A DNA stretch of 64,000 nucleotides, from NCBI GenBank assembly GCA_903925075.1, contig CAIYDQ010000276.1, forward strand, positions 1-64,000, read 5' to 3'. Positions 4,580 to 14,112 of the stretch are shown in pieces. Origin of the DNA: an uncultured Geobacter sp. Its GTDB lineage: Bacteria > Desulfobacterota > Desulfuromonadia > Geobacterales > Geobacteraceae. Each line of letters begins with the position of its first letter. Positions within the stretch are counted from its first letter, which is position 1. The position numbers and the translations under genes are program-made. The notes under the pieces are model-generated. The model did not search any database. It was given only the letters and a program-made list of their open reading frames with translations, and was not told the origin of the DNA.

Positions 4580-5163
4580 ACATTTCTCCTGTCAATTGTC
4601 GTGTCCCGGTTCACTTGCATAAGCCGGGCTCACGCCGGTGTGGGTTGAAGCGGTGAAAACTCGACTGTGGTTAGGTCCTCTCATGGACCGGGTAATGTGA
4701 GCCAATTTTTGCCGGGCCATTGAATGTTCCTTACAGGGACATCAGTAACGATGGTCGACGTCTCTGTGAACGATATTACATGAATGATGCCAACTACGAT
4801 AAACACACGATAACGGTATGTTAGGGGTTTGGACGGGAAGCACAGATGTCCTCATTAGGGACACGGTGTGGCCGGTGGGGACAACCATGGCTGACGGCAG
4901 GAGCGGTAACCCGGGGAGAAGTTGGCAGAGAGTTAAGGCCGATTCGTTTGATCGGGAGCAAAAGCAGATGCCCATTGACGGATGGGGGAGTTGGGAGTTG
5001 GGCGCATGCGGAGCAGGTTCCCCACTCCGCTGGCCGAGGAGCGTGCGCTTCACTTAGTTGTCAATCGTTGCAAATAGTTGTCGGTATATCCATTCCGCGA
5101 GATCGCTTAGATCGCTTGTGCTGACGCAACCATGTACCTAACGACGCGACTCTTGTGGCTGTG
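4580..5163. other. Intergenic region with one repeat copy
   Basis: About 580 bases between two minus-strand genes. I see no convincing protein-like frame. It contains the promoter region of the chemotaxis receptor at its left end and one copy of a 31-bp repeat at 5000-5030. Confidence 0.4.
5000..5030 (+). repeat. 31-bp direct repeat, copy 1
   Basis: The sequence GGGCGCATGCGGAGC...CCACTCCGC recurs at 7663-7693 with two mismatches. The copies lie on either side of the haem/phosphatase gene. Just before each copy there is also a similar short GGGAGT repeat. Confidence 0.6.
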
Positions 5164-5197
5164 CAAAAAAATGGCCGGTTCCGTTGGAGCCGGCCAT
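5164..5197 (-). terminator. Intrinsic terminator of the haem/phosphatase gene
   Basis: On the minus strand an 8-bp stem (ATGGCCGG with CCGGCCAT, 5171-5178 and 5190-5197) is followed by seven T residues. It lies about 60 bases after the stop codon at 5254. Confidence 0.85.
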
Positions 5198-5253
5198 TCG
5201 TTGTGCTTAGCTGTTTCTCCCTTTGCGGGGAGGGGCGAGAGCAAAGGCGGCGG

Positions 5254-7530
5254 TCATTTGGCGACGTGGCCGTAGCACGCCTTCAACCCGGCGTAATCGT
5301 AAAAGTGGCTGCCGGGGGTATGTCTGGCCGCATCGCAGGCGGTTTTGAAATCGGTGTCCTTCTCGTTGTACAGCATCTTGACGAGCAGGGAGCCGCTGCC
5401 GTTACCGTACACGTCCCACTGCACGTTCGCCGCAAGCGGCGAGACTATCGACCCCCGCCAGGGGTTGTTGTCGTAGGTGTAGTTGCCTGCGTTGGGGGTG
5501 GCTACCGAGCTGTCCGGCAGGCCGAGAATGGCGGCCAGGGGCATGATTTCCTCGCCGTGGGTGAAGCGCAACGAAGCCCCGTGGGCGAGATTCCCTTTGG
5601 CGATGGCGTCGATTTCGTTGAAGAGGTCGTTTACCAGCACCTGCGCCATCTTGAAAGTGCCGGGGCTGTCTTCCGCTATGCCCGGACCCTTCTGATAGTA
5701 ACTCTGCACGTCGTCAAGATATGCCAGGTAACTCGCCTGCGCATCGGGTATGTACTGGGTGAAGTCGAGGTTGTTGAGTTCAACCGTCATGGCCGGCGCG
5801 ATGGTGTAAAACGAATACAGGGCGGACGCGGCATCGGTGAGGCTTTGCACGGTGGTGCTCCCGTCTCCCGACAGGGTGCTTGTGTACTTGCCGTCGCCGC
5901 TCACAAAGGTGAGGGTGCCGGAGTTGGCGAAGGTGTAGGTGCCGTTGTCGATCTTGTCCACGAAATCGGCGCTGAAGAGCCTCACCAGCACCGCGCGAGC
6001 GTTGGCCTTGGCGTCGGAGCTGGTCAAAATGGCGTTCACTTTAGCGAGTAGATTGGCGTTTTTCAGATAGGCCTGGTAGCTCAAACTGTCCTGATAGGTC
6101 TGGTAGTAGGGATCGGTGCTGTCGGTCACCAGATCGGTCTTGGCGGCGAGCTTATGGAAATAGAGCAGGAAGCGGTTGATTCCCGCCGCCTGCGCCGCAG
6201 GTTTATTGGCGGGGTAGGCGGTAAGCGCCGGCGCCTTGACGACCAGCGGTTTCAACGAGGAATAGTTCGACATCAGGGCCTGGGTGAAAAAGCCGGCGCT
6301 GTCCATGGCGCGGTTGACCCCGGAGCTGACGTACACGATCTTGCGCGGCGTAGCGGTCGTCTTGCTGGCAGCCACTTGAGCGAAGTAGCCGGGAAGGCGC
6401 TGGTACAGCCTTGCTGCGATTTTCTGCTGTTCTCCGATTCCTATCGCCGAGAGGTTGCCGTAGCCGGCTGCGGTGATGCCGGACACGCCGGAGCCGAGCA
6501 GGGCGTTGGCGCTCATCATCTTCCAGACGTCGGCCGACAACTTGACTCCCAAGGGGGTCAGCGCGCCGTCGGCGGCGGCCTTTTGCAGCATGTTGTAAAC
6601 GGTGGCGTCGAAGCTGGACATGCCGCGCGAGCCGTGGCGCACCACGGCTTCGGTGTATATCGGGTTGAAGCCGAGCGGAGCCTTTTCGCAGGAAGCGACG
6701 CCTTGTTGCGGCAGATACGGGGTGGCGGTGGTGGCGTTCTTGGCGGGGCGATCGCTGCTGACAAACGGGCCGAAGGGGTCATGCGAATTGTGGCAGGCGG
6801 AGCAAACGAGCTGGTTGGCGCCGTTTAAATACGCGGCGGAGCTGTGGCTGCCGGTAACGGTCGGGGCATGGCACTCGGCGCATCTTCCCGTGGCGGGATT
6901 CGCGTCGTCGTGAGCGGGTCCGTGGCATCCGGCGCACCCGGTGCCGGCAATGCCGGCGTACTTGACGTTGCCGGTCCAGCTTGAATTCGTGTAATGGCCG
7001 GACTGCTTGAACTCGGCGACCAGATTCTGGCCGGTTGAATCGAGAGTCGTCTCGTGGCACTGGATGCATCCCTGGTCCTGAGCCTTTTCGACGGGAGGGG
7101 ACATGGCGATGGGGGAGGCAAGCGTGGTGGTCGCGCCGGCGTTGACGACCACGCCGATGGCGAAACCTTCATAGGCCACCGTGCCGCCGTTCAGGGCCTT
7201 GACGGCAAGGGTCACGGTGCCCGGATAGATGCCGCCTATCGTTCCTTGGTTGGTGGTGGCGTCGATTGAACCTCTGACGACCGGGATGGCTGCGCCGTTG
7301 TCGTCGGTGCCGGTAACGGTCACCTGGACGCTGGTAATTCCGCCGGGGGCCGAACTCGCCAGCTTGGCGGTCTTCCCTTCTCCCCAGACCATTTTGGCTG
7401 CGATGGAACCTGGCGTTGCACCGCCGGTTTTGGCTACGTTGCTAAGCGTGCTTGCTCCGCACCCCGTCACTGCGAACGCCAGCAGCGCATACAACAGACG
7501 GCGCAGCTTGCTCATGCCCGTGTTTCTCAT
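5254..7530 (-). CDS. Tetrahaem c-type lipoprotein fused to a histidine acid phosphatase domain
   Basis: A 758-residue lipoprotein. The lipobox is AVTGC with Cys24. Residues 30-145 are a beta-sandwich carboxypeptidase-regulatory-like region. Residues 150-250 carry four CxxCH haem sites (Cys155, 199, 217 and 243). Residues 290-758 match the histidine acid phosphatase clan: the nucleophile motif VVRHGSRG (298-303), an SSGVNRAMDSA segment with the third conserved Arg (about 407), and a distal THGEE (658-661) in place of the classical HD or HAE acid. This last pattern is closest to multiple inositol polyphosphate phosphatases. The RHGxRxP proline is missing. The start at 7530 has GGAGG five bases upstream. 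It is a single-gene unit with its own terminator. Substrate is unknown; phosphate release from phytate-like compounds is a guess. Confidence 0.85.
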   Translation of the reverse strand: MRNTGMSKLRRLLYALLAFAVTGCGASTLSNVAKTGGATPGSIAAKMVWGEGKTAKLASSAPGGITSVQVTVTGTDDNGAAIPVVRGSIDATTNQGTIGGIYPGTVTLAVKALNGGTVAYEGFAIGVVVNAGATTTLASPIAMSPPVEKAQDQGCIQCHETTLDSTGQNLVAEFKQSGHYTNSSWTGNVKYAGIAGTGCAGCHGPAHDDANPATGRCAECHAPTVTGSHSSAAYLNGANQLVCSACHNSHDPFGPFVSSDRPAKNATTATPYLPQQGVASCEKAPLGFNPIYTEAVVRHGSRGMSSFDATVYNMLQKAAADGALTPLGVKLSADVWKMMSANALLGSGVSGITAAGYGNLSAIGIGEQQKIAARLYQRLPGYFAQVAASKTTATPRKIVYVSSGVNRAMDSAGFFTQALMSNYSSLKPLVVKAPALTAYPANKPAAQAAGINRFLLYFHKLAAKTDLVTDSTDPYYQTYQDSLSYQAYLKNANLLAKVNAILTSSDAKANARAVLVRLFSADFVDKIDNGTYTFANSGTLTFVSGDGKYTSTLSGDGSTTVQSLTDAASALYSFYTIAPAMTVELNNLDFTQYIPDAQASYLAYLDDVQSYYQKGPGIAEDSPGTFKMAQVLVNDLFNEIDAIAKGNLAHGASLRFTHGEEIMPLAAILGLPDSSVATPNAGNYTYDNNPWRGSIVSPLAANVQWDVYGNGSGSLLVKMLYNEKDTDFKTACDAARHTPGSHFYDYAGLKACYGHVAK

Positions 7531-7662
7531 ATCCCCTCCATTAAATTTGAGTTGAAATGATATTTTAATAGCACGAACCGACGATGAGGGTTGTTAAGGT
7601 TCTGTGAATTTGAAAAGAGGCCGGGGGGAGCGGGGATGGAAGCAGAGGTGGGAGTGGGAGTG

Positions 7663-7699
7663 GGGCGCATGCGGAGCGGGTTCTCCACTCCGCATGCGC
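7663..7699. repeat. Direct repeat copy 2 extended into a perfect hairpin
   Basis: Positions 7663-7693 repeat 5000-5030. Here the repeat extends into a perfect 12-bp inverted repeat (GCGCATGCGGAG 7665-7676 with CTCCGCATGCGC 7688-7699) with an 11-base loop. It lies about 60 bases downstream of the MFS gene's stop and could end its transcript, although no T-run follows on either strand. Confidence 0.55.
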
Positions 7700-7757
7700 G
7701 ACTAATTGGCGTCCGGCGGCAAGGCTGCAGCCCGGACTAGCCGTTTAGACTGAACGC

Positions 7758-9119
7758 TTACTCCAAGCTTGCCGCACAGGCGGCGGGCGCTGCGATTTCG
7801 ACGGTGTCTTTCGCCAGGGCAAGACGCACCAAAAACGCTCCCACCACCTGCATGGCGGCCACGAAGAGGAGGCCGACGGTCCAGTCGTGGGTGAGATCCT
7901 TCAAGAATCCCACGATGACCGGACTGGTGACCGACGCCAGGATGCCGACGGTGCTGATGGCGGCAATGCCGACGGGACGCGCTGCCGCCGACAGGATGTT
8001 GGGGGGGAGGGTCCAGAAGATGGCCATGGCCACAAACGCCCCGACCGTGTAGCAGATCAGCCCGACCATCTGCACTTCCGGAACCCTGACAAAGGCAACG
8101 ATTATCCATCCCACCGCCGCGAGCAGCATCGGCGCGATCAGGTGCCAGGTCCTCTCCATCTTCCGGTCGGACCTGGCGCCCCAGATCGGCATGGCAATGG
8201 TGGTGATGATCGCGGGGAAGGCGATGAACAGCCCCGCATGGGTAAAGCTGTGACTTTTCAGCACGCTCTTGACGATTTGCGGCGTCCAGGTTGCCGTGGT
8301 GTTCAACCCCACCACCACGCAGAAATAGGCGGCGGAGAGCATGACGATCTTGCCGTCCAGCACTTCGCGCCACCCCTGCGCCTTGGCTTTGACCTTGGCG
8401 CCGGCTGCGGCCGCCTCCCGCGCCAGACTGCGCTGAATGAGGTCCTTCTGCGACCCGGTCAGCCATTTCGCCTGACCCGGGTTGTCGGGGAGGTAGAAGA
8501 GGATGACGATGCCGAGCAGGATCGCCGGAATCCCTTCGATGATGAACATCCACTGCCAGCCGACCAGGCCGAACATGTGATTGGTCTTGTCCAGAATTAG
8601 GCCGGACAACGGCGACCCTATGGCGATGGTGACCGGCTGGGCGGCGAGGCAGATGGCGGTGGCGCGCGCGCGATAGTTAGCAGGAAACCAATAGGTGAGG
8701 TACAGCACCAGGCCGGGGGCGAAGCCGGCCTCGGCAATGCCGACCAGCAGGCGCAGGAACATGAGGCTTTGCGCCGAGGTGGCGAGCATGGTCGCGGTCG
8801 AGGCGATGCCCCAGGTGATCATGATCCTGGCCAGCCATTTGCGCCCGCCGAATTTGGCCAGCATCATGTTGCTCGGCACCTCGAAGACCGCATAACCGAG
8901 GTAAAAAACCGTGTTGGCCAAGCCGAACATGGTCGCGCTCAGCTTCAGATCCTTGTTCATGGACAGTGCGGCAAAGCCGATGTTGATGCGGTCCAGATAG
9001 GAAACTACGTACATGAGGAACAGGATCGGAACCAGGTACCGGAAGGCTTTCCGCAAGACCCGGGATTCCTCCTCCCGGTTCGAATCGACATCCACGGCTG
9101 CATCGGCTTTGCTTTCCAT
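7758..9119 (-). CDS. MFS transporter, anion:cation symporter type
   Basis: A 453-residue, twelve-helix transporter. I chose 9119 as start because GGGAGGAAACG lies directly upstream and the remaining frame to 9185 looks non-coding. The N terminus has the signature of the sugar-acid/aromatic-acid symporter family (FLMYVVSYLDRINIGFA) and the loop motif KFGGRKWLAR between helices 2 and 3. The loop before helix 7 lies at about residues 210-235. It follows an amidohydrolase gene by about 100 bases on the same strand, so it probably imports that enzyme's substrate or a precursor, likely a small organic anion. The exact substrate cannot be read from sequence. Confidence 0.85.
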   Translation of the reverse strand: MESKADAAVDVDSNREEESRVLRKAFRYLVPILFLMYVVSYLDRINIGFAALSMNKDLKLSATMFGLANTVFYLGYAVFEVPSNMMLAKFGGRKWLARIMITWGIASTATMLATSAQSLMFLRLLVGIAEAGFAPGLVLYLTYWFPANYRARATAICLAAQPVTIAIGSPLSGLILDKTNHMFGLVGWQWMFIIEGIPAILLGIVILFYLPDNPGQAKWLTGSQKDLIQRSLAREAAAAGAKVKAKAQGWREVLDGKIVMLSAAYFCVVVGLNTTATWTPQIVKSVLKSHSFTHAGLFIAFPAIITTIAMPIWGARSDRKMERTWHLIAPMLLAAVGWIIVAFVRVPEVQMVGLICYTVGAFVAMAIFWTLPPNILSAAARPVGIAAISTVGILASVTSPVIVGFLKDLTHDWTVGLLFVAAMQVVGAFLVRLALAKDTVEIAAPAACAASLE

Positions 9120-9222: not shown

Positions 9223-10227
9223 CTAAAGATTGAAAATGCGCTCGGCGTTTTTGCTGCGTACCAGGTGCCGAGTCTGTTCGGGCAACGCATCCACGCGCGA
9301 CAGGCACCCCGCCATGTCGCCGATGTTGTGCGGATAGTCGGAGCCGTAGAGGACGTTGTCCGGGCCGAACACGTTGATGCACATCTCCAGGGCGTCCTGT
9401 CGGTAGACGACGGCGTCGGCGTAAACCCGGCGCAGGTAGCTGCTGGGGCGCTCCTTGGAGCCGCAGGTGGGCTCGACTTTGGCGTTGCAGGTGGGGATGT
9501 TGTCGAAGCAGCGGTCGAGCCTCCCCACCAGGTAGGGGAGGGCGCCGCCGCCGTGGCTGGCAATCAGTTTGAGCTTGGTGTAGCGGTCCATGAAGCCGTC
9601 GTAGATGCAGCGGCTGATCGCCAGGGTGGTGTCGAAGGTGAAGCCGACCGGCGGCACCAGGTTGTGCTGCGCCATGTCCATTTCGCTCACTCCCTGCGGC
9701 GCCGTGGGATGCACCAGCACGGGGAGCGCCCGATCGTCGATCGCCTGCCAGACGTCGGCGAAGCGGGGGTCGGTGAGTGAGCAGCCGGCAATATTGGCCA
9801 ACACCATCACCCCGACCGCCCCCTGTTTCACCGCGCGCTCCAGTTCGGCGACCGCCTGTTCCGGATACTGCCAGGGGAGCGAGGCGAAGTGGCGGATGCG
9901 GTCGGGAAAGGCGCGTTGCGCGCCCGCCATGTCGTCGTTCATGAGGCGCGCCGCCTGGAGGCTGGTTTCGCAGTCCCCCCAATAGACGTTGGGGCAGGTC
10001 AGCGACACGATGGCGAGGTCCACTTTGGATTTGGTCATGTTCTTCACGCGCAACTCGTAGTCGAACATCTCCTTGTTGGGGGTCATGAAGGGCGCGCCGT
10101 CCATGTGGATCACATCTTTCAACGCCCCGACGTCTTTCGTCGCGTAGCGCGGCCCGCCATGCTCCTTCAAAAGTTCAAACCATCGTTCTCCCATCATGTG
10201 GGTATGGACATCGATCACCAAGCTCAT
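9223..10227 (-). CDS. ACMSD-family amidohydrolase/decarboxylase
   Basis: A 334-residue metal-dependent hydrolase-fold protein. The start at 10227 has AGGAGGAAT upstream. The metal site is visible as VHTH (His8, His10), a later conserved His in IASHGGGALPY, and a terminal Asp in YGSDYPHN. This set is typical of the ACMSD group, whose members mostly decarboxylate aromatic or unsaturated acids without redox cofactors. It is followed by the MFS gene and faces the LysR regulator, so the three form a probable uptake-and-degradation unit. The reaction (decarboxylation or hydrolysis) and the substrate are open. Confidence 0.85.
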   Translation of the reverse strand: MSLVIDVHTHMMGERWFELLKEHGGPRYATKDVGALKDVIHMDGAPFMTPNKEMFDYELRVKNMTKSKVDLAIVSLTCPNVYWGDCETSLQAARLMNDDMAGAQRAFPDRIRHFASLPWQYPEQAVAELERAVKQGAVGVMVLANIAGCSLTDPRFADVWQAIDDRALPVLVHPTAPQGVSEMDMAQHNLVPPVGFTFDTTLAISRCIYDGFMDRYTKLKLIASHGGGALPYLVGRLDRCFDNIPTCNAKVEPTCGSKERPSSYLRRVYADAVVYRQDALEMCINVFGPDNVLYGSDYPHNIGDMAGCLSRVDALPEQTRHLVRSKNAERIFNL

Positions 10228-10287
10228 CGTTATTCCTCCTTGTGATTTTTCAATCTTTTCACTTGCCACTGTAGGACGGCGGTAATA

Positions 10288-10298
10288 TAACACTGTTA
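10288..10298. promoter_or_regulatory. Candidate LysR operator
   Basis: TAACACTGTTA is a short inverted repeat with one central base in the 129-bp gap between the divergent amidohydrolase and LysR genes, where a LysR regulator normally binds. This is inferred from position and symmetry only. Confidence 0.3.
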
Positions 10299-11313: not shown

Positions 11314-12309
11314 CTAAAGGTGCAGCAACCTGCGCGCATTGCCTTCGAATATCTTCTGCTTGGTCGCCTCGCTTAACGCCATCTGCTCGATCCCATCGAT
11401 GGCTCCACGGATGGAAGCCCCGCCGTTTTCCACGTCATAGGGCATATCGCTGCCGAAAAGAACGTGATCCTCGCCGAAGAAGCCGAGGCCGCACTCCATC
11501 GAGTAGTTGCTGTTGCCGATCAGCGCGGTGTCGGCATAGAACATCTTCAGGTATTCCAGCGGATGCTTGGTCAACCCCGGGAAATGGTCGGCGCCCAGCC
11601 GCTCCAGGCCGTTGTTCCAGTGGGCAAAGGCGCGATCGGAGAAATACGGCGCCATCCCTCCCATGTGGTGGGTGATGAACTTGATGGTGGGGAACTTCTC
11701 GAAGATGCCGGAGAATGCCAGCCGCACCATGGCTGCGGTGGTTTCATAGGGCCAGCCGTAAATGGAGAACAGCTGGTGGTAGGAGGCGTTTTCCGTGGCG
11801 TAGTCGGGTTGGGAGGAGTTGCGCGCGGGGTGCAGCCAGATGGGGAGGTCGTGATCCACCATCAGCTGATAAAGCGGCATCATCTTCTCCGCACTGATGG
11901 GCTCGTCGTTGACGCGGGTGTAGATCTGGATCCCCTTGAAGCCCAGTTGGGTGATGGCCCGCTCCGCTTCCTTGACCGCGGCGTCCATGTCGTTGAGCGG
12001 GAGATTGGCGAGGGCGGCGATGTAGTGCTGCGGGTCTTTCGCCACCAGTTCGGCCATCTCGTCGTTGCACACCTGCGCCAACTCCAGCGCTTCCCGCGGG
12101 TCGACGACCTCCTCCAAGGGGGGCATGGTGGTGCAGATCACCTGGGCCAGGTCGGGATAGGGCTCGAACTTCGCCAGCCTGGCCTTTTCGTCGGTGAGGA
12201 CGGTGCGCTTGACCTGGAACGCCTTCTCGGTCGCGAACCGGTCGGCGTGCTTGTAGAGCCTTGCTTGGTACTTGGGGAGCAACACATGGGTAAATATGTC
12301 GATTTTCAC
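11314..12309 (-). CDS. Second ACMSD-family amidohydrolase
   Basis: A 331-residue protein starting with GTG at 12309 behind GGAGG. It has the same fold as the 9223-10227 product: an N-terminal metal motif (DIFTHVLLP), a substrate-side WLHPARN, the metal His pair in FITHHMGGM and the catalytic Asp region LFGSDMPYD. The usual first ligand of the N-terminal HxH is Phe here (F-T-H), as in some decarboxylase subgroups. It is transcribed away from a sigma-54 activator and has a matching sigma-54 promoter. Together with the neighbouring transporter and enzyme this suggests a second step, or an alternative substrate, of the same pathway. Confidence 0.85.
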   Translation of the reverse strand: MKIDIFTHVLLPKYQARLYKHADRFATEKAFQVKRTVLTDEKARLAKFEPYPDLAQVICTTMPPLEEVVDPREALELAQVCNDEMAELVAKDPQHYIAALANLPLNDMDAAVKEAERAITQLGFKGIQIYTRVNDEPISAEKMMPLYQLMVDHDLPIWLHPARNSSQPDYATENASYHQLFSIYGWPYETTAAMVRLAFSGIFEKFPTIKFITHHMGGMAPYFSDRAFAHWNNGLERLGADHFPGLTKHPLEYLKMFYADTALIGNSNYSMECGLGFFGEDHVLFGSDMPYDVENGGASIRGAIDGIEQMALSEATKQKIFEGNARRLLHL

Positions 12310-12380
12310 CTGCAGCCTCCTTGTTGTGAGGGGAACGCCCCCGTGTTGGAAAACCCGTTTCCGGGCGAGTGACGGCGTAC

Positions 12381-12397
12381 TTGCTGCAATCGTGCCA
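12381..12397 (-). promoter_or_regulatory. Sigma-54 promoter of the second amidohydrolase gene
   Basis: Read on the minus strand the site is TGGCACGATTGCAGCAA: the -24 GG and -12 GC pairs are exactly ten bases apart and the -24 half (TGGCACG) is perfect. The -12 half deviates slightly (CAGCA rather than TTGCA). It lies 72 bases upstream of the GTG at 12309, and the divergent gene encodes a sigma-54 activator. Confidence 0.7.
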
Positions 12398-12457
12398 GTT
12401 TTGACCTGCCGTGAAATCCGATAGTTGCGCGATAAGGGATGGAGCGACCGGTAAATG

Positions 12458-12475
12458 CCACGATCTATGCCGTGG
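12458..12475. promoter_or_regulatory. Candidate enhancer (upstream activating) site
   Basis: An inverted repeat CCACG-8-CGTGG lies 61-78 bases upstream of the -24 element, the right place for binding by the adjacent activator. A looser half-site (CCGTGG) follows at about 12497-12504. Confidence 0.45.
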
Positions 12476-12546
12476 AATGTTGTGGTTTTCCGCGCGACCG
12501 TGGTATATTGTGGCGCCGGCGGCGAGAAAAAAGAAAGGGGCGGGTA

Positions 12547-14112
12547 ATGCTGAATCGGGACGAGTTCATCAGAGAAGTGACCATCAGGATTTGCAGCAGC
12601 CTGCAGATCAAGGTCTCGCTGCAGAGCACCTTTGAGTACCTGAAGCGGGAGGTGCCGCTGGATGCCCTGTGCCTGAGCATCATCGACACCGAGCTTGGCG
12701 CCGTCAGGAACATCGCCACGGCGGTGAGCGAAGCGGAGCAGTTGGAGGAGATCGTGCCGCTCCCCGAGGAGTTGCTGGCGCGGGTGCTGAAACGGCGCAA
12801 GGAGCGGCCCCTGACCGAGCCGTTCATCGTGAGCGAGCGGCACGCGGACGACTTGATCCGCAGCTTTGCCCCTATCTTCAAGGTGGCCGGAAACTCGCGG
12901 CTGGTGGTGCCGTTGGCCATCGAGGGGGAGCGGGTGGGGAATCTCGCCCTGTGGACCCGCGGCGAAGGGAAATACGGCGCCGGGCACCTGGAACTGCTGC
13001 GGGAGGTGGCGAAACCATTCGCCATCGCCCTGGCCAACGCCTTGGCCCACGAAGAGGTGCTCCGTTACCGGGACGTCCTGCTCGACGACAACAGCTTCCT
13101 CAACCGCGAACTCCACGCGCAATCGGCGGATCAGATCATCGGCGCCGGCACCGGTTTGCGCAACGTGACCGACATGGTGCGCCAGATCGCGCCGCTCAGG
13201 AACACCGTGCTCCTGTTGGGAGAGACCGGGACCGGGAAGGAAGTGATCGCCAACCTGATCCACTTCTCCTCCAACCGCAAGGACGGCCCCTTCATCAAGG
13301 TGAACTGCGGCGCCATTCCGGAGCAGTTGATCGACAGCGAACTCTTCGGGCACAAGCGCGGCGCCTTTACCGGGGCGATTGCCGAGAGCCGCGGGCGCTT
13401 CGAGCGCGCTGACGGCGGGACCATTTTTCTCGACGAGATCGGGGAACTTCCCTTGCCCGCCCAGGTCCGCCTGCTCAGGGTGTTGCAGAGCCACGAAGTA
13501 GAGCGGGTCGGGGGAGGGCGCCCGGTGAAGATCGACATCCGGGTAATAGCGGCGACCCACCGCAACCTGGAGCGGATGGTGGCCGAGGGACGTTTCCGGG
13601 AAGACCTCTGGTTCCGGCTGAACGGTTTTCCGATCATCATCCCGCCGGTTAGGCAAAGGAAGGGAGACATCGCCCCGCTGATCCGCCACTTCATGACCCA
13701 GAAGAGCAGGGAACTCGGCGTGCCGTTGCCGGCCGGCGTCGCGCCCGGGGCGCTGAAGCGTCTCATGGAATACCACTGGCCGGGGAACGTGCGGGAGCTG
13801 GAGAACCTGGTGGAGCGGGAATTGATCCGGCAACAGGGCCAGCCGCTCACCTTCGACAGCGTCCTTCCCGTCAGGGATTGCGCGCCGGCCGCGCAACAGG
13901 GGACAGGCTCCCCCCCCTTAACCCTGGATGAGGCGATGGCCGCGCATATCGGCGCAGTGCTGAGGCTCAGCGGCGGCAAGATCTACGGGCCGGGAGGCGC
14001 GGCCGAATTCCTGCGGGTCAACCCGGACACCCTGAGGTGGCGCATGAACAAGCTCGGCATCAAGCCTCAAAAGAGGGGCGCGGCGGGGACGGCCGAGTCG
14101 TTGGCGAGTTGA
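12547..14112 (+). CDS. Sigma-54-dependent activator with N-terminal GAF domain
   Basis: A 521-residue enhancer-binding protein of the FhlA/NorR layout. Residues 1-170 are a GAF-like sensor, and 197-430 are the AAA+ domain with Walker A GETGTGKE (225-232), the sigma-54 contact loop GAFTGA (272-277) and Walker B around 290-299. Residues 470-510 hold a Fis-type helix-turn-helix (AAEFLRVNPDTLRWRMNKLG). The start at 12547 has a GGGGCGGG site upstream; the frame extends further 5' without a better start. There is no receiver domain, so a small molecule bound by GAF probably controls it. It faces a sigma-54 promoter 150 bases away and most likely activates it. Confidence 0.92.
   Translation: MLNRDEFIREVTIRICSSLQIKVSLQSTFEYLKREVPLDALCLSIIDTELGAVRNIATAVSEAEQLEEIVPLPEELLARVLKRRKERPLTEPFIVSERHADDLIRSFAPIFKVAGNSRLVVPLAIEGERVGNLALWTRGEGKYGAGHLELLREVAKPFAIALANALAHEEVLRYRDVLLDDNSFLNRELHAQSADQIIGAGTGLRNVTDMVRQIAPLRNTVLLLGETGTGKEVIANLIHFSSNRKDGPFIKVNCGAIPEQLIDSELFGHKRGAFTGAIAESRGRFERADGGTIFLDEIGELPLPAQVRLLRVLQSHEVERVGGGRPVKIDIRVIAATHRNLERMVAEGRFREDLWFRLNGFPIIIPPVRQRKGDIAPLIRHFMTQKSRELGVPLPAGVAPGALKRLMEYHWPGNVRELENLVERELIRQQGQPLTFDSVLPVRDCAPAAQQGTGSPPLTLDEAMAAHIGAVLRLSGGKIYGPGGAAEFLRVNPDTLRWRMNKLGIKPQKRGAAGTAESLAS

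Follow-up and report, generated by a model that had tools for sequence, protein, structure and literature searches.

What does the reading frame at 5254..7530 encode, and are the two protein kinds that it seems to join, a multihaem cytochrome and a phosphatase, really parts of one gene? We analyzed this question within the window, that is, the whole stretch of 64,000 nucleotides from an uncultured Geobacter sp., and in genomes of related bacteria.

Architecture of the gene and its neighborhood

The gene is read from the minus strand, with its ATG at 7530 and its stop codon ending at 5254, and forms a single uninterrupted frame of 758 amino acids. A preliminary description of this DNA had proposed that four haem-c sites and an inositol-polyphosphate-phosphatase-like domain are fused in one lipoprotein, and the sequence at exactly these coordinates bears this out. 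The features of the gene and its flanks are:

5254..7530, minus strand: gene for a 758-aa lipoprotein in which a tetrahaem module is fused to a MINPP (multiple inositol-polyphosphate phosphatase) domain (open reading frame, Pfam and solved-structure matches)
7533..7539, minus strand: Shine-Dalgarno-like GGAGGGG directly 5' of the ATG (read from the sequence)
7459..7530, minus strand: signal peptide and lipobox, residues 1-24, ...AFAVTG-C24 with Gly at +2 (sequence; Cys24 invariant in 9/9)
7081..7458, minus strand: N-terminal region of the module, residues 25-150, probably beta-rich in fold (common to 8 same-genome paralogues)
6760..7080, minus strand: tetrahaem region, residues 151-257 (CxxCH at 155, 199, 217 and 243; conserved His at 179, 207, 229 and 250)
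7054..7068, minus strand: haem site 1, CIQCH, residue 155 (sequence)
6922..6936, minus strand: haem site 2, CAGCH, residue 199 (sequence)
6868..6882, minus strand: haem site 3, CAECH, residue 217 (sequence)
6790..6804, minus strand: haem site 4, CSACH, residue 243 (sequence)
6727..6759, minus strand: seam and linker, residues 258-268 (three sequences side by side, boundary placed by eye)
5260..6726, minus strand: MINPP-type histidine phosphatase domain, residues 269-757 (Pfam, structure matches, alignment and tree)
6625..6639, minus strand: RHGSR catalytic motif, residues 298-302, with His299 as the expected nucleophile (alignment; role as described in PMC7762957)
6310..6312, minus strand: Arg407, probable third phosphate-binding arginine (invariant column in the phosphatase alignment of the window protein and 7 other rows)
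5551..5559, minus strand: proton-donor triplet HGE, residues 658-660 (HAE in the 7 other alignment rows and in the G627 homologue)
5170..5198, minus strand: intrinsic-terminator-like hairpin past the stop codon, with a 13-bp stem and, in the minus-strand reading, seven T after it (from a scan that listed the stem on the plus strand and found 6 such sites against 3.8 expected by chance)

Pfam matched the back half of the protein to His_Phos_2 well above the cut-off (E 5e-11), and the front half to Cytochrome_C7 (26.5 bits, cut-off 24.8) and Cytochrom_c3_2 (25.4 bits, cut-off 25), both barely above it; an NCBIfam scan of the protein gave no model at or above its cut-off. The gene appears to stand alone, flanked by a chemotaxis receptor gene and, at its other end, by genes for an MFS-type transporter and an amidohydrolase (names from sequence reading). 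No CxxCH that could mark a conduit partner was found in any other gene picked within the window, and no phosphate gene was recognizable among the neighbors. There was no Pho-box-like site near the gene, the scan of the window giving one weak match at 1738 against 2.5 expected by chance, and no sigma-70-like promoter at 4600-7900. Compared with seven paralogues, the upstream leader has only a short CGGTTCG-like stretch in common. A short inverted-repeat motif like CGAACTTCGGTTCG lies shortly 5' of the start in five module genes (L009, L010, L013, L014 and L015) and is degenerate 5' of the window gene; an Rfam scan of ten loci gave no match. Elsewhere in the window, 2 amidohydrolase-like frames (9223-10293 and 11314-13896) lie near a LysR-type regulator, an MFS-type transporter and a sigma-54-type regulator, and may form a catabolic island (names again from sequence reading).

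The two parents and the seam between them

To trace the haem half, we searched the window's genome (6.55 Mb, 368 contigs), which gave 11 matches: the fusion gene and ten that end by residue 264. Among the complete module lipoproteins of this genome, those on contigs C261 (twice), C230 and C298 have 10 CxxCH motifs, those on C334, C72 and C93 have 9, and the protein on C146 has 4 followed by a small C-terminal part; a further decahaem gene is apparently split across the ends of contigs C116 and C261, where the two have an overlap of exactly 141 nt. The window module (the first ~257 residues) is 63, 65, 64 and 62% identical to the decahaem proteins (C261, two; C230; C298) and 52, 53, 42 and 41% identical to those of C334, C72, C93 and C146. 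The decahaem and nonahaem lipoprotein cytochromes of this genome, and their relatives, have the lipobox, the N-terminal region and haems 1-4 in common with the fusion protein (42-65% identity), but their C-terminal part consists of haems 5-10 or 5-9 where the fusion protein has a phosphatase. In an alignment of 9 same-genome module proteins (the window's and 8 paralogues), the lipobox Cys24 is invariant, in agreement with the lipoprotein anchor described earlier, and exactly eight His of the haem region are invariant, the four of the CxxCH motifs and those at 179, 207, 229 and 250. These are enough for bis-His ligation of four haems, which is probably how the module binds them. When 35 module proteins were aligned, the CxxCH residues and His 179, 207 and 250 were invariant in 35/35, whereas His229, which lies in a gap-prone stretch, dropped out of the invariant set. 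Invariance of all four CxxCH motifs in both alignments (9/9 and 35/35) indicates that the four haem-c sites first noticed in the window protein are not there by chance.

A tree of 18 modules placed the window's module in a clade with eight other members, all decahaem proteins (support 95/97), the branching order inside which is partly resolved. Its path length (0.24) is close to that of the decahaem paralogue C261b (0.23). Module dN/dS values of the window gene against C261a, C261b, C230 and C298 were 0.37, 0.36, 0.24 and 0.25; two of them (0.36-0.37) are above the 0.26 of a control pair that does not involve the fusion (C261b/C298). Two other architectures suggest that the four-haem module is exchanged as one unit. 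The C146 protein (377 aa) consists of the tetrahaem module and a small domain, and a protein of genome G625 carries the module at its C-terminus behind fibronectin-III-like domains; neither has an enzyme domain above the cut-off, although part of the G625 protein, among its fibronectin-III-like repeats, matches a rhamnogalacturonan-lyase beta-sheet domain below the cut-off. The C146 gene (L017:3248-4378) represents a natural four-haem version whose small C-terminal part has no Pfam match, and the G625 gene (L091:1061-4633, contig C82) encodes a lipoprotein-like protein of 1190 aa with fibronectin-III and carboxypeptidase-regulatory-like domains in the reverse of the usual order. In genome G623, a module gene (L096:4105-4839, contig C47) ends at a stop codon after an open frame of 245 aa, which leaves it with three haems, and is possibly a pseudogene or a sequencing error. 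The window's genome itself is larger than those of 18 congeners (4.5-5.4 Mb, rounded) and holds about ten module copies, while congeners have at most two strong ones.

The solved structures nearest to the C-terminal part are MINPPs (7zgf, E 2.5e-64; 6rxd, E 1.2e-57; 6rxf), and the match to 6rxd (BlMINPP) extends over the whole domain. Motifs described for this family are RHGxR, a further Arg, a HAE proton-donor triplet, LYNE, PMAAN and a U-loop followed by DAAx (PMC7762957, PMC9432691, PMC3969271). In the window protein, the nucleophile motif RHGxRxh (as defined in PMC7762957) reads RHGSRGM at 298-304, the MINPP-specific LYNE motif (PMC9432691) is found in KMLYNEKD, and the tetrapeptide after the U-loop insertion is DAAS, compared with DAAM or DAAA in characterized MINPPs. 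At the place of the PMAAN motif (PMC9432691) the protein reads PLAAN; because this position varies in other alignment rows as well (PYAAN, PYSAN, PLAAN), the motif is not strictly defining. The proton-donor triplet is HGE at 658-660, in which the glutamate is kept and the alanine is replaced by glycine. This triplet is unique among the aligned sequences and departs from the HAE that is "frequently" found in MINPPs according to PMC7762957. The same source describes an intermediate of BlMINPP in which the Ala of HAE contacts the phospho-group of the phosphohistidine via its main-chain amide. The Ala-to-Gly change may thus be mild, and the glycine is probably tolerated. Arg407 would be the counterpart of Arg-142 of BlMINPP (PMC7762957), a protein that lies outside the alignment in which Arg407 is invariant, and the 2 C-terminal cysteines, C732 and C752, presumably pair. 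RHGxR, LYNE, the DAAx after the insertion and two C-terminal cysteines are thus common to the fusion and known MINPP phytases/phosphatases (BlMINPP, 7zgf and the MINPP of the soil Acinetobacter AC1-2), from which it differs by its tetrahaem front, HGE instead of HAE and PLAAN instead of PMAAN. Altogether, RHGSR at 298-302, THGEE at 657-661, the His_Phos_2 match and the nearest structures confirm the phosphatase assignment of the preliminary description.

The closest relative of this half is a stand-alone phosphatase of genome G627, from the same order, which is 69% identical over window residues 263-757. The two are sisters in the phosphatase tree (100/100), followed by lipoprotein phosphatases of Burkholderia (54%), and their branches (0.18 for the window, 0.22 for G627) reveal no speeding up of the fused form. 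The G627 protein differs from the fusion in having no CxxCH, its own lipoprotein-like signal and the HAE triplet; several bacterial MINPP types are described as mostly predicted lipoproteins (PMC7762957). Since the G627 genome is fragmented (850 contigs) and 6% contaminated, its ownership of the phosphatase is not certain; the GC content of the phosphatase contig (0.50) is near that of two G627 module contigs (0.51 and 0.52). At L089:2176-7585 (contig C753), the G627 gene and the frames beside it, which by sequence reading are tatC and a gene for a Tat-signal metallophosphoesterase, may form a group for phosphate scavenging. Neither half of the fusion evolves faster than its relatives, which would say little if the fusion were very young.

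The seam was located by placing the window protein beside a decahaem protein of genome G016 and the G627 phosphatase:

G016 decahaem protein (haem 4, then haem 5): CATCHNPHNPLGPFVGGSCVKCH
Window protein: CSACHNSHDPFGPFVSSDRPAKNATTATPYLPQQ
G627 phosphatase: GTGNGAKYAATATPYQPKQ

The decahaem likeness ends in GPFV, before haem 5, and the likeness to the stand-alone phosphatase begins within about ten residues, in AK-AT-ATPY. Read in this way, the sequences place the seam after haem 4 and ahead of the position that haem 5 would occupy. The trees suggest the direction of the event, in which the phosphatase would have lost its own signal and lipobox and taken those of the cytochrome, and the cytochrome would have lost haems 5-10.

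Rarity of the fusion and soundness of the assembly

The fusion was found in 1/277 genomes of the class, the window's own. Within the genus, 1/19 genomes matched the phosphatase domain, again the window's, and a search of the family with the fusion protein matched 12/48 genomes, in none of which, the window's gene apart, the match went beyond query residue 269. With a phosphatase profile, the domain was detected in 2/277 genomes of the class (the window's and G627), and the phosphatase half alone was matched in 1/395 genomes across the phylum, the window's. Scans of genome contigs, one for the whole protein and one for the phosphatase half, led to no confirmed relative; as each relied on six short peptide patterns, this is weak evidence of absence. 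Viral contigs gave no match to the fusion, 2 phage records matched, and the phosphatase occurs in 14 plasmid records, of which the 8 that were read had no CxxCH in frame. His_Phos_2 itself was found in 13/395 genomes of the phylum (including the window's) and in 2/14 control genomes; among the best loci of the 12 other phylum genomes, 8 read as RHGVR-type phosphatases lacking CxxCH. Conversely, the module profile matched 126/277 class genomes, many over a few haems only, and 41 rows had an E value of 1.0e-48 or better among the matches listed (nine candidates were scored per genome, so that numbers for copy-rich genomes are at least those given, and C146 did not appear). A Pfam scan of 35 module proteins (34 of these best 41 rows and C146) detected an enzyme domain above the cut-off only in the window's, which makes the phosphatase fusion the only clear enzyme case among the 35 scanned. 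No description of such a fusion was found by title or abstract start among the best matches in the open-licence literature. Within the genomes searched, the fusion is apparently lineage-specific and built from two known kinds of protein; as no relative shares it, comparison offers no proof that selection maintains the two halves as one protein.

Such rarity, in a draft genome that is split into 368 contigs and carries the module about ten times, could also arise if the assembly had joined a cytochrome gene to a separate phosphatase gene. We compared the gene with its paralogues, taking the longest exact match to each. These matches measured 13-25 nt in the ten paralogues and none was located at the seam; those closest to it, at haem 4, have 15 nt. 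The C116/C261 overlap of exactly 141 nt is far above this 25-nt maximum and suggests that joins in this assembly take an overlap of roughly this size. The genome holds a single copy of the phosphatase, the frame is kept across the seam, and the GC content is even along the gene (0.636, 0.633, 0.621 and 0.605, with 0.611 for the window), compared with 0.51 for the G627 phosphatase. Codon usage of the phosphatase half correlates with that of 14 host genes (r = 0.90); that of the module half correlates equally with host genes and with G627 genes (r = 0.66 for both), so the test says little about the module. Taken together, the exact matches, the contig-end overlap, the composition and the phosphatase codon usage argue against an assembly artefact, which we judge highly improbable. 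The preliminary description had taken absence of the same fusion from relatives as a sign of such an artefact; no other case was found, yet with matches of at most 25 nt, none of them at the seam, this conclusion is not supported. As far as the assembly shows, the fusion is real.

Cell location and function of the fusion protein

Gly at +2 after the lipobox Cys points to the outer membrane by the lipoprotein sorting rule, and the lipobox thus suggests that the fusion protein is an outer-membrane lipoprotein. Relatives of its haem half on C72 of the same genome and in genomes G009, G016, G017 and G024 are clustered with a barrel candidate, further multihaem proteins and large lipoproteins. The barrel candidates, assigned by position, have 442-523 aa (that of G017 runs past the stretch examined), and a pentahaem lipoprotein of about 157 aa is present in the clusters of C72, G016, G017 and G024 and absent in G009. 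Of two barrel candidates scanned with Pfam, that of G009 had a sub-cut-off MtrB/PioB match and that of C72 none; NCBIfam gave no match for three (C72, G016 and G024). No barrel or multihaem neighbors were found beside the decahaem genes on C261, C230 and C298 in the stretches examined. In their order, the clusters resemble the ext conduits of Geobacter sulfurreducens, in which whole surface lipoproteins are described as often replaced by unrelated ones (PMC6148476). The outer-surface location proposed earlier is plausible on indirect grounds, as some relatives of the haem half belong to porin-cytochrome-like clusters, but the window gene stands alone.

The sequence comparisons establish the order of the domains, the ancestry of both halves and the conservation of their ligand and catalytic residues. 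From these, we propose with moderate confidence that the gene encodes an outer-membrane lipoprotein in which an electron-transfer tetrahaem module and an active MINPP-type phosphatase/phytase are functionally linked at the envelope. The front (residues 1-257) would correspond to the tetrahaem module of a decahaem electron-transfer lipoprotein, lipid-anchored and probably with bis-histidine ligation, and the back (about 263-758) an active MINPP-type phosphatase/phytase. We picture its origin as a replacement within this lineage: a decahaem gene would have exchanged its hexahaem C-terminal part for the mature portion of a lipoprotein MINPP, a type of protein that the same order still has in stand-alone form. 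Once exported and loaded with haem, the protein would act at the envelope and release phosphate from inositol phosphates and related esters through the usual phosphohistidine mechanism, with His299 as nucleophile and Glu660 as donor. Its haems would hold the phosphatase, presumably exposed at the surface and near electron-transfer partners, within the electron-transfer layer of the cell, where reduction of phytate-binding Fe(III) would expose substrate.

The main rival to a functional link, possible although we doubt it, is that the haem half provides a signal peptide, a lipid anchor and an export domain and that the haems have no role in phosphatase function. Lipoprotein-like starts are also present in the nearest stand-alone phosphatases, so an anchor is apparently what the enzyme requires, and the MINPP reaction as described (PMC7762957), a phosphohistidine hydrolysis, involves no electron transfer. 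Against this, all CxxCH motifs and the candidate distal His have been retained with no rate increase; in addition, a lipoprotein phosphatase has its own anchor and the fusion would gain nothing by anchoring alone, although this argument is not strong. An improbable alternative is a recent accidental fusion in which either the haem or the phosphatase function has been lost. Its confinement to a single genome (1/277 in the class) and the unusual HGE triplet would fit, but the 758-aa frame is intact, both halves retain their ligand or catalytic residues, the gene has its Shine-Dalgarno-like and terminator-like sites, and the middle residue of HAE acts via its main-chain amide in BlMINPP, so that Gly may be mild (PMC7762957). 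Metal-phosphate biomineralization, in which freed phosphate would precipitate toxic metals such as uranium beside the haems that reduce them, combines two processes that are both described in bacteria, phytase/phosphatase-linked uranium precipitation and cytochrome-driven uranium reduction (PMC8963506), but is very unlikely here, as the gene and its neighbors (gene starts read by eye) contain no pointer to metal resistance.

If the two halves are functionally linked, the nature of the link is constrained by the enzyme. Coupling of phosphate release to metal reduction had been suggested for this protein, but no residue or neighbor gene points to it, and because MINPP hydrolysis needs no electrons, any coupling must be either regulatory or spatial, in the latter case by freeing Fe(III)-bound substrate through reduction. 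The other early suggestion, that the haem serves as a structural or regulatory part, may hold, but the haem half is recognizable as a module taken over from decahaem cytochromes. More tentatively, and on balance improbably, the protein could work as a redox-assisted phytase, a single surface protein whose tetrahaem arm reduces the mineral Fe(III) that holds phytate or organophosphate and whose phosphatase arm hydrolyzes the substrate so exposed.

Iron oxides bind phytate and other organophosphates, which make up a large but poorly available pool of phosphorus, and the link of iron reduction to the release of phosphorus is generally regarded as indirect chemistry. If both activities are joined in one protein, this link would be enzymatic and testable, and the function of the fusion protein can be tested directly. 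With likely relatives of both parents identified, the fusion illustrates how a multihaem lipoprotein can swap its outer half for a hydrolase. Should the redox-assisted reading be true, the tetrahaem unit would serve metal reducers as an exchangeable arm that carries enzymes as well as additional haems.
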